A stretch of DNA of 60,710 nt, taken from the NCBI GenBank assembly GCA_013377075.1, contig JACABD010000011.1, positions 18,454-79,163 of the forward strand, written 5' to 3'. Made by a program: the position numbers and the translations under genes. Positions within the stretch are counted from its first letter, which is position 1. The number at the start of each line of letters is the position of its first letter. Of this stretch, positions 2,247-8,089 are shown piece after piece. The notes beneath the pieces are model-generated. The model saw nothing but the letters and a program-made list of their open reading frames with translations, was not told the DNA's origin and ran no database searches. Origin of the DNA: Geobacteraceae bacterium (GTDB taxonomy: Bacteria > Desulfobacterota > Desulfuromonadia > Geobacterales > DSM-12255).

Positions 2247-2819
2247 ATGCGATATATACCTGCCATTGTTCTCCTAATTCTCACAAACATGCCAGTAAGC
2301 GTGCTTGCAGCAGAGCGTAAATCCCCTGTTGACGGCGGCATACTGACTTCAAGCCCCGGGCTGCGCAAGGACCCTTTCGGCAGCGGAAGAATGGTCATGC
2401 ACAACGGCTGGGACATTGCCGTACCATCCGGGACGCCGGTACATCCGACCCAGGAAGGGACTGTCTACTTTGCCGGTCAGTACAAAGGCTACGGCAACCT
2501 TGTCGCCATTGAACATGGCAAGGGGTACATCTCCATGTACGGGCACAATGCCGAGATCCTGGTAAAGCCAGGAATGTACGTTACGCCCAAAACAGTTATC
2601 GCCCTTTCAGGAAACACCGGCAGGTCGACCGGTCCCCATGTTCACTACGAAGTAAGGCAACTCCCCTCCTCCTATCAGAAAAAACGTGAAGCGGAGTTGA
2701 CTGCCAGACTGAAAGAATCTGTTACAGGACAGATTGATCAACTGGTGGAGAACTTTGCCACCGGCAAAGGTGGACCTGAGCAGGAGTCAACACTTCTTCC
2801 GTCGGATATAGATCAGTGA
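2247..2819 (+). CDS. M23/LytM-family peptidase, secreted
   Basis: This is a 190-residue protein with an N-terminal signal peptide (about 1-22, ending VLAA). A LysM-less M23 metallopeptidase domain spans about residues 30-145. Zinc ligands are visible as HNGWD (HxxxD) and HVHYE (HxH). M23 enzymes cleave peptidoglycan cross-bridges or peptide stems in the periplasm, or act as amidase activators when the ligands are missing; here they are present. The C-terminal 45 residues are charged and probably helical. No clear ribosome site precedes the start. The gene converges with the 64-residue minus-strand gene and overlaps it by 7 bases. Confidence 0.82.
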   Translation: MRYIPAIVLLILTNMPVSVLAAERKSPVDGGILTSSPGLRKDPFGSGRMVMHNGWDIAVPSGTPVHPTQEGTVYFAGQYKGYGNLVAIEHGKGYISMYGHNAEILVKPGMYVTPKTVIALSGNTGRSTGPHVHYEVRQLPSSYQKKREAELTARLKESVTGQIDQLVENFATGKGGPEQESTLLPSDIDQ

Positions 2820-3007
2820 GTCGGAAGCCCAACCGGGCAGCGCTCGGTCTGGCGCAAATTGAGAGATCTGGCTTCTACCTGAACCCGCTTCTGCTGCATG
2901 TACTTCTCTCCCAGTAACCTCCAGTACAGAACAAACGAAAGGCATATCAATGCCACTACGCTTATCATACTCATTAACACTACCTGCATCGAAATCTGTT
3001 CAACCAT
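2813..3007 (-). CDS. 64-residue single-span membrane protein behind tandem riboswitches
   Basis: I do not recognise a family. The protein has one strongly hydrophobic segment (about residues 8-30, with MISVVALICLSFVLYW at its core) followed by a basic, polar tail of about 34 residues. The positive-inside rule predicts a cytoplasmic C-terminus. ATG at 3007 follows GGAG by eight bases, a good ribosome site. It is the first gene downstream of a sigma-70 promoter (3331-3359) and two riboswitch-terminator units, so its expression should be set by a cyclic dinucleotide. Its short length would hide it from many annotations. Its function is unknown; the context suggests a small regulator or partner of an envelope machine, possibly the PilB-like system encoded just upstream. 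Confidence 0.6.
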   Translation of the reverse strand: MVEQISMQVVLMSMISVVALICLSFVLYWRLLGEKYMQQKRVQVEARSLNLRQTERCPVGLPTH

Positions 3008-3032
3008 AATTTTTCTCCTTTTACTGTTTAAT

Positions 3033-3075
3033 AAAAAAACCGGGTTACCGAAATGTGATATTTCGGCAACCCGGC
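3033..3075 (-). terminator. intrinsic terminator of the gene-proximal riboswitch
   Basis: Read on the minus strand, CCGGGTT and CCGAAAT pair with ATTTCGG and AACCCGG around a five-base loop, giving two helices of seven pairs split by one mismatch, followed by a run of seven Us. The 5' arm reuses the conserved 3' strand of the aptamer. A folded, ligand-bound aptamer would therefore block the hairpin and allow read-through into the 64-residue gene. Confidence 0.85.
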
Positions 3076-3142
3076 TGTCTGCTTGAGACCCTGTAGGCTT
3101 TCCGCCCCACCCTCGCGGATGGTTAAGTAGTATCGTTTATCT
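3058..3142 (-). promoter_or_regulatory. GEMM-I class cyclic-dinucleotide riboswitch, gene-proximal copy
   Basis: On the minus strand the aptamer shows the P2 stem CCAUCC-GCGA-GGGUGG with a GNRA tetraloop, the conserved GGAAAGCC, and a P3 region (GGGUCU...AGAC) that closes with AGCCGGGUUGCCG, the family 3' signature. Aligned to the Vibrio Vc2 aptamer, position 20 is A instead of G, position 21 is C and position 46 is G, so the conserved 21-46 pair is kept by covariation. A at position 20 is the known hallmark of GEMM-Ib aptamers that prefer 3',3'-cGAMP. The alignment was done by hand. The terminator arrangement predicts a ligand-induced ON switch. Confidence 0.8.
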
Positions 3143-3197
3143 TCTGACTAACCCTGTTGAAGAGTAAGCCTTGCCAGCAGTCTCCGGCGACGGCAAT

Positions 3198-3241
3198 AAA
3201 AAAGCCGAGCACCGAAAATGTGATATTTTCGGCAACCCGGC
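3198..3241 (-). terminator. intrinsic terminator of the promoter-proximal riboswitch
   Basis: On the minus strand GCCGGG and CCGAAAAT pair with ATTTTCGG and CTCGGC (one G-U pair) around a five-base loop, followed by six Us. The layout matches the second terminator, with the 5' arm again taken from the aptamer 3' end. Confidence 0.83.
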
Positions 3242-3306
3242 TGTCTGCTTGAGACCCGTAGGCTTTCCGCCCCACCCTCGCGAATGGTTAAGTAGTATCG
3301 TTTATC
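3222..3306 (-). promoter_or_regulatory. GEMM-I class cyclic-dinucleotide riboswitch, promoter-proximal copy
   Basis: This is a near-identical copy of the aptamer at 3058-3142. P2 is CCAUUC-GCGA-GGGUGG, where a C-to-U change is tolerated as a G-U pair, and the P3 loop region is one base shorter. It keeps A at position 20, C at 21 and G at 46. It begins about 20 bases after the predicted -10 box. The two units lie 164 bases apart and probably arose by duplication. Each has its own terminator, so full-length transcript requires read-through at both. Confidence 0.8.
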
Positions 3307-3330
3307 ATGACTGCTGGATATTTTTGGCAA

Positions 3331-3359
3331 TTTATACATACTTTAAAACTGACTGTCAA
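3331..3359 (-). promoter_or_regulatory. sigma-70 promoter of the riboswitch transcript
   Basis: The -35 box TTGACA (3354-3359) and -10 box TATAAA (3331-3336) are separated by exactly 17 bases on the minus strand. Transcription would start near 3324, just upstream of the first aptamer and downstream of the HD-GYP stop codon. The riboswitch gene can therefore be transcribed independently of the operon above it. Confidence 0.75.
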
Positions 3360-3401
3360 TCTATCTGAGCTAAAAATTTCAGCTAAAGACATATTGCTAT
3401 T

Positions 3402-4379
3402 CTATCCAATCGTAATTTCAGGAACAACCTTGGCCTTGAAAATCGCAAGCAGGTCTTTATCCAGAACGCCATCAAGCTTATCCATTATCAGCAGCGCCCC
3501 TTCAAGCTCATTCCCCTTCCTGTAAGGCCTGTCGCTGGTAATTGCATCAAAAACATCCGCTATTGCCGCTATCCTTGCTTCAAGGGGGATAGAGGCGCCT
3601 TCAAGCCCGGCAGGGTAACCGCTACCGTCAATTCGCTCATGATGATAGAGGATTACATTTACCACAGCCTCGGGGAGACCCGCTTCACGGGCGACCTGGG
3701 TCCCCCAGTCAGGGTGCTGCTTGATAATTTCGAATTCTTCCAGTGTCAGTTTGCCGGGGAAGTTGAGTACCTCCTCAGGAACGCCTATCTTGCCGCAGTC
3801 ATGGAGGATGCTACCATGGCGGATGCAGGTAATCAGCGGCTCCTCGACCCCAATTGCCACTGCAAGCCGTTCCGCATAATCTGCAACCCGGTCACAGTGC
3901 CCCCGTGTATAGGGATCTTTCAGCTCAACAGTGTGGGCAAGTGACCTATAAAGCAGCTCGTCACGGCTCCTCATGGAGGTGAGCATGTCATACCGTGCAA
4001 CTGCTTCATCGACAAGGGTCAGCAGTTCATCATTATCCCAGGGTTTGGTGATAAAGCGGAAAGCCTCGCTGCAATTGATGGCCGAGATTGCCACCCCGAG
4101 ATTTGCATAGGCAGTCATCATTATTCTGACCGTATCGGGGGAGAGACTTCTTAGTTTAGAGAGAAAATCGATACCGGTCATCCCCGGCATCTGATTATCT
4201 GAGACCACAACCCATATTTTCTTCTTAAGCACTATTTCAAGGGCTTCTACAGGCGATGGGCAAAAGATGCAGTTGTACCCGGTCTCCTGAAAAAGCCTCC
4301 TCAGAGCACTCAATACCGCTGCTTCGTCATCGACAAACATGACGGTTGCAGCTATTTTTCCTGCATCCGTATCAGACAT
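3402..4379 (-). CDS. REC-HD-GYP response regulator, probable cyclic-dinucleotide phosphodiesterase
   Basis: This is a 325-residue cytoplasmic protein. A receiver domain spans about residues 12-128, with acidic residues D17/D18, phospho-acceptor D61 and the KPW motif. An HD-GYP domain follows (about 140-320) with HDCGK at 193-197, HHE at 246-248 and DGSGYP at 251-256, so the metal and signature residues are intact. HD-GYP enzymes hydrolyse c-di-GMP, and some (Vibrio V-cGAPs, Myxococcus PmxA) prefer 3',3'-cGAMP; the substrate cannot be read here. The start overlaps the 3' end of the REC-ATPase gene by eight bases. It is the last gene of the operon, directly upstream of the riboswitch promoter, which makes a feedback link to the riboswitch ligand attractive. 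Confidence 0.88.
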   Translation of the reverse strand: MSDTDAGKIAATVMFVDDEAAVLSALRRLFQETGYNCIFCPSPVEALEIVLKKKIWVVVSDNQMPGMTGIDFLSKLRSLSPDTVRIMMTAYANLGVAISAINCSEAFRFITKPWDNDELLTLVDEAVARYDMLTSMRSRDELLYRSLAHTVELKDPYTRGHCDRVADYAERLAVAIGVEEPLITCIRHGSILHDCGKIGVPEEVLNFPGKLTLEEFEIIKQHPDWGTQVAREAGLPEAVVNVILYHHERIDGSGYPAGLEGASIPLEARIAAIADVFDAITSDRPYRKGNELEGALLIMDKLDGVLDKDLLAIFKAKVVPEITIG

Positions 4380-6792
4380 GAGCTGTTTCCCGTTTCTGGA
4401 TACCGCAGAACGGACATTTCACCCACTCCTCCTCCATCGGCAGCCTGCAGGTATGGCAGTAGTTGCTCCTGAAAGTTCCACAGTAAGGACAGAAGACGAA
4501 TTTAGGATCTATCATCCTGGCGCAGCCGCTACAAGTTCGCTCGTTTCCTGTCTGGGGCCCAAGAACCCTGAAAAGCTCTTCAAGGGTGGTCATGCCAAGC
4601 CTCACCTTTTCAATTCCGTCCTCAACAAGAGTGCGCATCCCTTCACTTTTTGCAAGTTGTAACAGCTCGCTCTCCCTGTAGTCGCAGCTTATTGCATGCC
4701 TGTAGTCATTGGTCATGACAAAAAGTTCGAATATCCCGACCCTGCCAAGGTAGCCGCTCTTATTGCAGCTGTCGCACCCCTTCCCTTTCGCGACAGTTGT
4801 CCCCAATGCCCCGGCAGGTACTTTCAGTAATGATATAAGCTCCTGATCCGGCTCGACCTGGACGGCACATTCCGGACAGATCCTTCTGACAAGCCTCTGG
4901 GCGATTATCCCCTGAAGTGCAGAAGCGATAATGTACGGTTTTACCTCCATATCCATGAGTCTTGTAATGGAAGATATGGAGCTGTTGGTATGGAGGGTGG
5001 TAAAGACCAGATGGCCGGTAAGCGCCGCCTTAAAGGCGACATCAGACGTTTCAAAATCCCGCATCTCGCCAACAAGGATGATATCCGGATCCTGCCTCAG
5101 GGTTGAGCGGAGTACCTGGGCAAAGGTGAGCCCGATCTTCTCCCTGACAGCAACCTGGGTTGCCTCTTCAAGGAAATACTCGACAGGCTCTTCGATGGTC
5201 TCGAAATTTTTACTCGGGTCCATGATTGAGGCAAGGATTGAATAGAGCATGGTTGTCTTGCCGCTTCCGGTGGGGCCAGTGCTGATAATGACCCCCTGGG
5301 GCCTTGAGGCGATGAGCTGGAGCCTTTTCAGATCATCCGGCATGACGCCAAGATCGCTGAGACTCTTGATGGCCGCGCTCTTGTCGAGCATCCTCAAAAC
5401 TATCTTCTCTCCGTTTATTGAGGGGAGACAGGAGACCCGCATGTCAACGATCCTGACCCCTGCCTTGACAGTTATCCGGCCATCCTGGGGGCGCCTGCGC
5501 TCTGCTATATCCATCTTGGCAAGGATCTTGACCCTGGAAACTACGGCTGAATGCAGTTCTGCCGGAACCTTTATCTTGCTGTGCAGCATTCCGTCCACAC
5601 GATAACGGATCAGGGTATACTTGGTCTTTGGCTCAATATGAATATCGCTGGCCCTGTACCTCACCGCCTCGGAAATAATCGAATTGACGATCCTGATGAC
5701 CGGTGGGACTTCTGAGGAGCCGATGAGCTCGGCGATATTGAGATCAGTCTCTTCGTCATCAATGACAATATCAATCTCATCGAGTGGTTCGAGATCGCTG
5801 ACGTCATCGGCATCATCGAAGAGATCCTGATCACGCTCTCCGTAAAAGGCCTTGAGCTGTGCGATGATTTCGGAGCTTGCCGCAAGGAGAGGAATCACCT
5901 TAAGCCCGGTCATGACCGAGATATTGTCGTATTTATAGATATCTGAAGGATCAGCCATGGCAATGGTGAGCTGATTACCATCCAGCCTTACCGGCAGAAT
6001 GCGGTTCTTTTCACACAACTCCCGGGGGAGAAACTTGACCGCAGCGGACTGAAGCTGCGCCTCCCGCAGATCAATGTACTCGACCTTGAGATTGTCCTGC
6101 ATCGCCTTTAGTATCCTGCTCTCGGAAGCAATGCCGAGCCTGACAATGGTGTCGCTAAGGAATTCGGAGGTCTTCATCTCACGGAACGCCTTTTCAAGCT
6201 CCTCTGCCCTCAGCACCCCTTCCTGTAGCAGTATTTTCCCCATGACGCCGCGATTTTCGTCAAAAATCCCGGAATAGTTCTTCAGTTTCTGCTGCTGAAT
6301 GCGGGTAACTTCCTTAAGACGTCTGTTTTCGTGAAGGAGGACATACTGCTGCAATGCAAGGCTGACGGTCAGGCGCAGATCCTCATCATTCCACGGTTTT
6401 GTAATGAACTTGTAGACAGCACCTTCCTTTACGGCCGCCATTATGGAGTTAACATCGGCGTGGCCTGTCAGCATGATCCTGATGGTTTCGGGCCATCTTT
6501 CCCGTATGATCTTCAGAAGCTCTCCACCGTTCATTCCGGGCATGCGGTGATCTGTCAGAACAAGATTAATACGTTCGCGTTCCATGACACTGAGTGCAGC
6601 TTCCGCAGAAGTTACCGTGATTATTTCGTAGTTTTCCTCCATGAAGATCCGCTTCAATGCGGCCAGCACGCTCTCTTCGTCATCAACAAAAAGGAGTGTA
6701 AAGCGCCGCTCATCGGCACCACGCTGATCCTTTTGGAAATCCCCCGGTTCGCTCTTTCCGGCTGCACTGAAGAGTCCGGCATACTTTGCCAT
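4372..6792 (-). CDS. REC domain fused to PilB/GspE-type ATPase with C-terminal double zinc ribbon
   Basis: This 806-residue protein is about 240 longer than a normal PilB/GspE. Domains in order: receiver (about 30-150, phospho-acceptor D81, KPW at 132-134); a linker; a T2SSE_N/MshEN-like N-domain (about 180-320, including LPVRLDGNQLTIAMADP); and the secretion ATPase with Walker A GPTGSGKTT (506-514), Walker B DIILVGE (570-576) and the PilB zinc tetracysteine (C639, C642, C673, C676). Two further CxxC...CxxC zinc ribbons lie at 754-796. MshEN domains can bind c-di-GMP. Such hexameric ATPases drive type IV pilus or type II secretion assembly; phosphorylation of the REC domain would make this one directly signal-controlled. 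No pilus genes are nearby. The histidine kinase stop lies 13 bases upstream. Confidence 0.88.
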   Translation of the reverse strand: MAKYAGLFSAAGKSEPGDFQKDQRGADERRFTLLFVDDEESVLAALKRIFMEENYEIITVTSAEAALSVMERERINLVLTDHRMPGMNGGELLKIIRERWPETIRIMLTGHADVNSIMAAVKEGAVYKFITKPWNDEDLRLTVSLALQQYVLLHENRRLKEVTRIQQQKLKNYSGIFDENRGVMGKILLQEGVLRAEELEKAFREMKTSEFLSDTIVRLGIASESRILKAMQDNLKVEYIDLREAQLQSAAVKFLPRELCEKNRILPVRLDGNQLTIAMADPSDIYKYDNISVMTGLKVIPLLAASSEIIAQLKAFYGERDQDLFDDADDVSDLEPLDEIDIVIDDEETDLNIAELIGSSEVPPVIRIVNSIISEAVRYRASDIHIEPKTKYTLIRYRVDGMLHSKIKVPAELHSAVVSRVKILAKMDIAERRRPQDGRITVKAGVRIVDMRVSCLPSINGEKIVLRMLDKSAAIKSLSDLGVMPDDLKRLQLIASRPQGVIISTGPTGSGKTTMLYSILASIMDPSKNFETIEEPVEYFLEEATQVAVREKIGLTFAQVLRSTLRQDPDIILVGEMRDFETSDVAFKAALTGHLVFTTLHTNSSISSITRLMDMEVKPYIIASALQGIIAQRLVRRICPECAVQVEPDQELISLLKVPAGALGTTVAKGKGCDSCNKSGYLGRVGIFELFVMTNDYRHAISCDYRESELLQLAKSEGMRTLVEDGIEKVRLGMTTLEELFRVLGPQTGNERTCSGCARMIDPKFVFCPYCGTFRSNYCHTCRLPMEEEWVKCPFCGIQKRETAHV

Positions 6793-6805
6793 CGGTTAAG
6801 CCCCC

Positions 6806-8089
6806 TCAAGGGTTGATAAGTAGAAATTCCATTTCAAAAAGTGCCCCACCTGCGGCAGACTCCCTGACAGTAATAGTGCCATTACACTGTTTGACAATAT
6901 CATAGACAACTGCGAGCCCCATACCTGTGCCGCCGCCAACATCGCGGGTTGTGAAAAACGGGTCAAATATCCGCCCCCGGATCTCTTCGGGGACTCCGTG
7001 ACCGTTATCTGCAATAGAAAAATAGACCCTCGCCCCGTCGCAAAACGATTTGAGCTGTAGAATCAGACCCGATGGAGCAGCCTGGGCTGAGTTCTGGATC
7101 ATATTGAAAAGAGCCTGGCAGAACAGAGCCCCGTTCCCGGTGACCGGAGGAGTAGGGGAAAGATCACACTTAATTACCGTATCAAACGGGAGCTGCGCCT
7201 TGACAACAGAGAGCGTCCGTTCCACCTCAAGCTTGAGATCGAAACTCTGTCCTTCTATCTCATCCACGTGGGAAACCCCTTTCAGGTCGGCAACGATCCT
7301 CCTGACACGCTCTGCACCGGCAAGGCTCTGCTCAAGAAGATCCCAGACATCCCCCTTGACCATGGCGATCTTCAGTTCATCCTGCTTTGAACCGGCCAGA
7401 TCACTCAATTTTTCATCCGAAGCTGTCTGCTGCTGATACCAGTCGACCATTTCTATCAGCCTGGACACATATTTTTTCAGTGTCGAAAGATTACTGTTTA
7501 TAAAACCGACCGGATTGTTGATCTCATGGGCCACTCCGGCAGCCAGCTGGCCTATGGAGGCAAGTTTTTCCTGTTGCAAAAGCCTCGCATGGGCGATTCC
7601 CAGCTCATAAGTCCGCTCCTTCACCTTTGCCTCAAGGCTCTGGGCAAGCTCCCTGTACCTTGTTTCCGATGCTGACAACTCAAGATTTTTTGCCAGAAGC
7701 TCATCATAGCTTCTCGTGACAACCGAGGTATGCATCCTGGCTGTCAACGTCCGCTTCAGATTGTTATTCAGCACAACCGAAATCGCCGAGCGAAGCATGG
7801 CTGCAATCCCGCAAACTGCCTGATCATGCTCGCCTCCAGACACCTGAATATCAGCGATCTTCTCCCCTTCAAGGGAAACAGGTAGTGTTATCAGACGCAG
7901 AGCGACTCCGCTTTCGACATCCTCTTCACTGCAAATAACTGTTCCGTTCTCCGCAATCAGAGAAACCCGCAAGGCCCCGGCGACCCGGGCTTCATGAACA
8001 AGAGCCCGTAATTCAGGTACCTTGAGGAGTTCTGTAATATCATGTTCCTCTCCGACCAGATATTCTATCTGTTCACGATGTTTGATCAT
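6806..8089 (-). CDS. soluble sensor histidine kinase
   Basis: This 427-residue kinase has no transmembrane segment. The N-terminal 115 residues form an unrecognised alpha/beta sensor-like region; a coiled coil spans about 125-175. The HisKA segment contains AAGVAHEINNPVG with phospho-accepting H188. The HATPase_c domain has an N box (MIQNSAQA), a G1 box (DNGHGVP), an F box (FFTT) and a G2 box (GTGMGL), so it should be active. It starts inside the end of the GTPase gene (4-base overlap) and precedes the REC-ATPase gene. It is the only kinase in an operon with three receiver domains, so it may phosphorylate several of them. Confidence 0.9.
   Translation of the reverse strand: MIKHREQIEYLVGEEHDITELLKVPELRALVHEARVAGALRVSLIAENGTVICSEEDVESGVALRLITLPVSLEGEKIADIQVSGGEHDQAVCGIAAMLRSAISVVLNNNLKRTLTARMHTSVVTRSYDELLAKNLELSASETRYRELAQSLEAKVKERTYELGIAHARLLQQEKLASIGQLAAGVAHEINNPVGFINSNLSTLKKYVSRLIEMVDWYQQQTASDEKLSDLAGSKQDELKIAMVKGDVWDLLEQSLAGAERVRRIVADLKGVSHVDEIEGQSFDLKLEVERTLSVVKAQLPFDTVIKCDLSPTPPVTGNGALFCQALFNMIQNSAQAAPSGLILQLKSFCDGARVYFSIADNGHGVPEEIRGRIFDPFFTTRDVGGGTGMGLAVVYDIVKQCNGTITVRESAAGGALFEMEFLLINP

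Follow-up and report, generated by a model that had tools for sequence, protein, structure and literature searches.

The minus strand of a 60,710-nt stretch of DNA from a Geobacteraceae bacterium (GCA_013377075.1, contig JACABD010000011.1), hereafter the window, carries between positions 3359 and 2813 two consecutive riboswitches followed by a 64-codon open reading frame (ORF). The locus raises the question of what such a pair controls, in response to which ligand, and what the doubling of the switch contributes. It can be said with considerable confidence that the unit is a tandem GEMM-Ib pair that switches transcription ON ahead of a 64-residue membrane protein with a single helix.

The tandem unit and its surroundings

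The elements follow one another in the order promoter, aptamer 1 with terminator 1, aptamer 2 with terminator 2, ribosome-binding site (RBS), and ORF (Table 1). The unit has its own promoter, located past the stop codon of the upstream response-regulator gene. The consensus promoter pointed out in the initial annotation has been confirmed as a near-consensus one, even though a scan demanding T at the last position of the −10 element missed it and only a looser scan detected it. Sites of this quality (11/12-type match) occur five times in the whole window versus 0.7 times in mononucleotide shuffles. The upstream gene belongs to a minus-strand cluster (3402-8089) that encodes, besides this HD-domain regulator, an ATPase of the PilB/GspE type fused to a receiver and bearing an MshEN domain, as well as a histidine kinase, a composition suggestive of c-di-GMP-linked pilus or secretion control.

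Table 1. Features of the riboswitch locus and its flanking genes (window coordinates).
Feature	Position	Strand	Details
Sigma-70-type promoter TTGACA-17-TATAAA	3331..3359	-	-35 = 3359-3354, -10 = 3336-3331; 11/12 consensus positions
GEMM-Ib aptamer 1, promoter-proximal	3228..3303	-	RF01051, 45.7 bits, E 9e-06 (cmscan); A20 = 3293, C21 = 3292, G46 = 3267 by alignment
Intrinsic terminator 1 + U tract	3198..3242	-	imperfect stem, -21.8 kcal/mol; 5' arm includes P3 3' arm of aptamer 1
GEMM-Ib aptamer 2, gene-proximal	3062..3138	-	RF01051, 40.4 bits, E 1.8e-04 (cmscan); A20 = 3128, C21 = 3127, G46 = 3102; extra A in P3
Intrinsic terminator 2 + U tract	3032..3076	-	perfect 17-pair hairpin, -27.2 kcal/mol; 5' arm includes P3 3' arm of aptamer 2
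Ribosome-binding site AGGAG	3015..3019	-	7 nt upstream of ATG; from sequence
Orphan 64-aa ORF, presumed target gene	2813..3007	-	one predicted transmembrane helix, ~residues 9-27
M23 peptidase gene, convergent	2247..2819	+	PF01551, E 3.1e-31; overlaps last codons of 64-aa ORF
Response regulator with HD domain, same-strand upstream neighbour	3402..4379	-	PF00072 + PF13487

A cmscan search of the whole window returned exactly two Rfam matches, both to RF01051 (GEMM-I) and both on the minus strand. Each exceeds the gathering score of 35, so the covariance model bears out the GEMM-I class previously proposed for both aptamers. The aptamers had also been described as near-identical and 164 bases apart; the tandem arrangement and the near-identity stand (97.4%), the distance from start to start being 165 bases, and the alignment of unit 1 with unit 2 spans about 120 nt. 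With two covariance-model matches, near-identical copies, and each copy followed by its own complete expression platform, the unit stands above chance. Thus, two complete aptamer and expression-platform units of one class precede one gene, which makes the pair a tandem riboswitch.

Two terminators of unequal computed strength

In both units, the 3′ arm of P3 (CCGGGUU, according to the Rfam alignment pairing) forms part of the 5′ arm of the terminator, which starts 15 nt inside the 3′ end of the aptamer. This type of overlap recurs at 116 of the 134 terminator-bearing sites of the bacterial family. Because P3 and the terminator share a strand, they are mutually exclusive, and ligand binding should permit read-through, as in an ON switch. 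RNA polymerase would start near 3325 on the minus strand and read through aptamer 1; with 3′,3′-cGAMP bound, P3 would keep its 3′ arm and terminator 1 would be blocked, while in the ligand-free state transcription would end near 3198. Aptamer 2 would repeat the choice against a stronger terminator, and the AGGAG/ATG of the 64-residue protein would be reached only by transcripts passing both terminators.

The presence of two strong intrinsic terminators had been recognized at the outset, and both are indeed found: aptamer 2 is followed by a 17-pair hairpin and aptamer 1 by a hairpin with slight imperfections, each with a U tract. The idea that they create two identical decision points has to be abandoned since the expression platforms are unequal, terminator 2 being perfect and about 5 kcal/mol stronger. 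The computed gap between the aptamer-constrained and the free fold is 10.7 kcal/mol in unit 1 and 19.2 kcal/mol in unit 2, these energies describing a ligand-free equilibrium and not co-transcriptional kinetics. The stronger terminator and the larger fold gap suggest that unit 2 is probably a stricter gate than unit 1, and aptamer 2 also bears the additional A in P3. A general rule that the second terminator is always stronger in such arrays was rejected, as the order varies among the 22 arrays of the family.

As to the consequences of doubling, a steeper response or a reduced basal expression had been anticipated. In a simple product model, the EC90/EC10 ratio drops from 81-fold to 40-fold for two equal switches, so that steepening is only modest; the leak, according to the same logic, would be multiplied down, and a drop in leakage is expected to outweigh the steepening. 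By reading one ligand twice in an AND arrangement, the pair would combine low leakage with some steepening of the response, switch 2 being the stricter of the two. Being a clean tandem GEMM-Ib with near-same aptamers and unequal terminators, the unit represents a natural test of switch doubling.

The output of the switches

The presumed target carries a single hydrophobic stretch (hydropathy peak of 2.83 over residues 9–27) and a basic C-terminal tail. Among random stretches of the window, 1.6% contain a start with an RBS within 80 nt and an ORF of at least 60 aa, and 0.06% show this start context together with a helix-like segment. The codon-usage score of the ORF (0.64) is under those of all seven neighbouring genes (0.74–0.81) and corresponds to the 30th percentile among ORFs of similar length in the window. 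Comparison with Pfam, PHROGs, and NCBIfam gave chance-level matches only. Protein searches in two sets of 97 and 141 genomes, the latter of the order, revealed nothing below E 0.008 except the ORF itself, and the best non-self match in those genomes contains stop codons. No relative was detected by peptide-pattern scans of genome and viral contigs or by tblastn against plasmids. At the DNA level, the ORF region yielded only short matches within the family, the best of which covers the AT-rich end with the ribosome-binding site. These results are in line with the initial annotation, where the controlled gene was regarded as a mini-membrane protein of no placed family: it has one predicted helix and no relative in the databases searched. 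As judged from these comparisons, conservation gives no support for translation of the ORF, no homologue having been found. Other GEMM-I targets in the family mostly look like long exported proteins.

One may tentatively suppose that the 64-residue orphan is a genuine lineage-specific effector of the cGAMP pathway, regulating, for instance, an envelope or electron-transfer complex, and that a graded double gate with a stricter second switch would hold its expression firmly off. A small protein of this kind, if real, would add an uncharacterised output to cGAMP signalling, which in Geobacter controls metal respiration.

It is also conceivable, though rather unlikely, that the riboswitches are genuine but act mainly through an antisense RNA, which would enter the 3′ end of the convergent M23 gene and lower its expression at high cGAMP, the ORF being incidental. 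The ORF does end within the M23 gene, a consensus scan found no terminator-like site on the minus strand from 2813 to the M23 start at 2247, and the ORF combines orphan status with weak codon usage; moreover, antisense-acting riboswitches are known, albeit rare (PMC9943018). However, the ORF possesses a well-spaced RBS and a helix-like segment, the rare combination described above, and nearly all GEMM-I sites of the family precede a sense gene with an RBS. A small orphan membrane protein is favoured as the output over an antisense RNA to the M23 gene.

The history of the locus has a bearing on whether the unit is functional at all. In a sister genome (G003; L229 / L044), the genes for the M23 peptidase and the HD response regulator meet tail to tail without a gap, nothing there matches the region of about 2816-3400, and a permissive Rfam search of that locus revealed no riboswitch. 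The HD and M23 genes of G003 overlap, the HD protein taking its tail from the antisense strand of the M23 gene, and the HD protein there has 340 aa versus 325 aa here and 328 aa in another genome (G002). Since the HD protein in G003 extends into the M23 gene beyond the point where it normally stops, a deletion in G003 seems to fit better than an insertion here, with neither proven. The absence of the unit from the sister genome counts against the favoured reading. Together with the lack of an ORF homologue in the 141 genomes of the order and the low codon-score percentile, it would also be expected if the locus were a decaying remnant, i.e., a duplicated riboswitch leader whose original target gene has been lost, leaving only a short ORF of no significance at its end. 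Such an origin is doubtful, given that the promoter, both aptamers, both terminators, and the RBS are intact and the family signature is kept in both aptamer copies.

The ligand and related tandem systems

The base at position 20 of GEMM-I touches the ligand, and an A there distinguishes the variants that respond to c-AMP-GMP (PMC9481103). When all 145 RF01051 matches found in 13 genomes of the bacterial family are aligned, both window aptamers read A20, C21-G46, and U22-G45, so that the A20 and C21-G46 previously claimed for both of them are confirmed by the comparison. This exact signature is present in 94 of the 145 aptamers, position 20 being A in 104 and G in 41.

Two GGDEF proteins of this genome carry Ser in the GHxxGS motif (GHLTGS, GHLVGS), which is of the Hypr type, and are candidate cGAMP synthases. 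One of them (locus L213) is a receiver-GGDEF protein encoded beside hisS; the second (L211:1453-2544, minus strand) bears GHLTGS and consists of 363 aa. The gene hisS presumably also adjoins GSU1658 (gacA), and the GHxxGD position is what we take to be the site of Ser347 in GacA. In GacA of G. sulfurreducens, residue 347 is Ser in place of the Asp of canonical enzymes (PMC6456294). A20 in both aptamers and the two Hypr-serine GGDEF proteins make 3′,3′-cGAMP the likely ligand, which supports, at the level of sequence, the cGAMP-preferring GEMM-Ib type suggested earlier. The same two observations render it highly improbable that the pair is an ordinary c-di-GMP-I tandem binding c-di-GMP instead, even though Rfam puts both subtypes in the single family RF01051 and some natural GEMM-I switches, as in the OmcST operon, sense both ligands (PMC6456294).

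The tandem GEMM-Ib arrangement is already known and is common in this family. Among its 122 GEMM-I sites in the 13 genomes, there are 22 arrays (21 doublets and one triplet), the spacing usually being 134-308 nt; two A20 aptamers are present in 20 of these arrays. In three arrays, L178 and L179 (G010) and L185 (G011), a G20 aptamer lies downstream of one or two with A20 (ACTGGA then GGTACA). These arrays are predicted from these motifs to be two-ligand gates for cGAMP and c-di-GMP; they precede exported proteins with similar N-terminal regions (DVTLQWN / DVLLNWDPN). A second doublet of this genome (G000 C1:62461-62744), located before genes for an RCC1-like repeat protein and a cytochrome-like protein, has the same signature as the window pair, its copies being 93% identical and 208 nt apart. 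Unlike the window pair, its second copy lacks an intrinsic terminator according to the scan, and its target is a long exported protein.

Tandem GEMM-Ib switches have been described, with expression data, in G. sulfurreducens, where deletion of gacA, encoding the cGAMP synthase, reduces the expression of every gene controlled by a GEMM-Ib switch, and RNA is no longer detectable at switch 2 of the OmcAHG tandem (PMC6456294). The window pair shares with these tandems (e.g., upstream of OmcAHG, GSU2885; PMC6456294) the aptamer subclass, two complete units, and, as predicted for the window pair, the termination-based ON control reported for them, but the OmcAHG target is a cytochrome operon, whereas the window target is a lone 64-residue orphan membrane protein. 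For c-di-GMP-I, 347 doublets and 12 triplets have been catalogued (PMC9481103); those doublets have the same class and pseudo-cooperative logic as the window pair, which differs from them in that its A20 predicts cGAMP.
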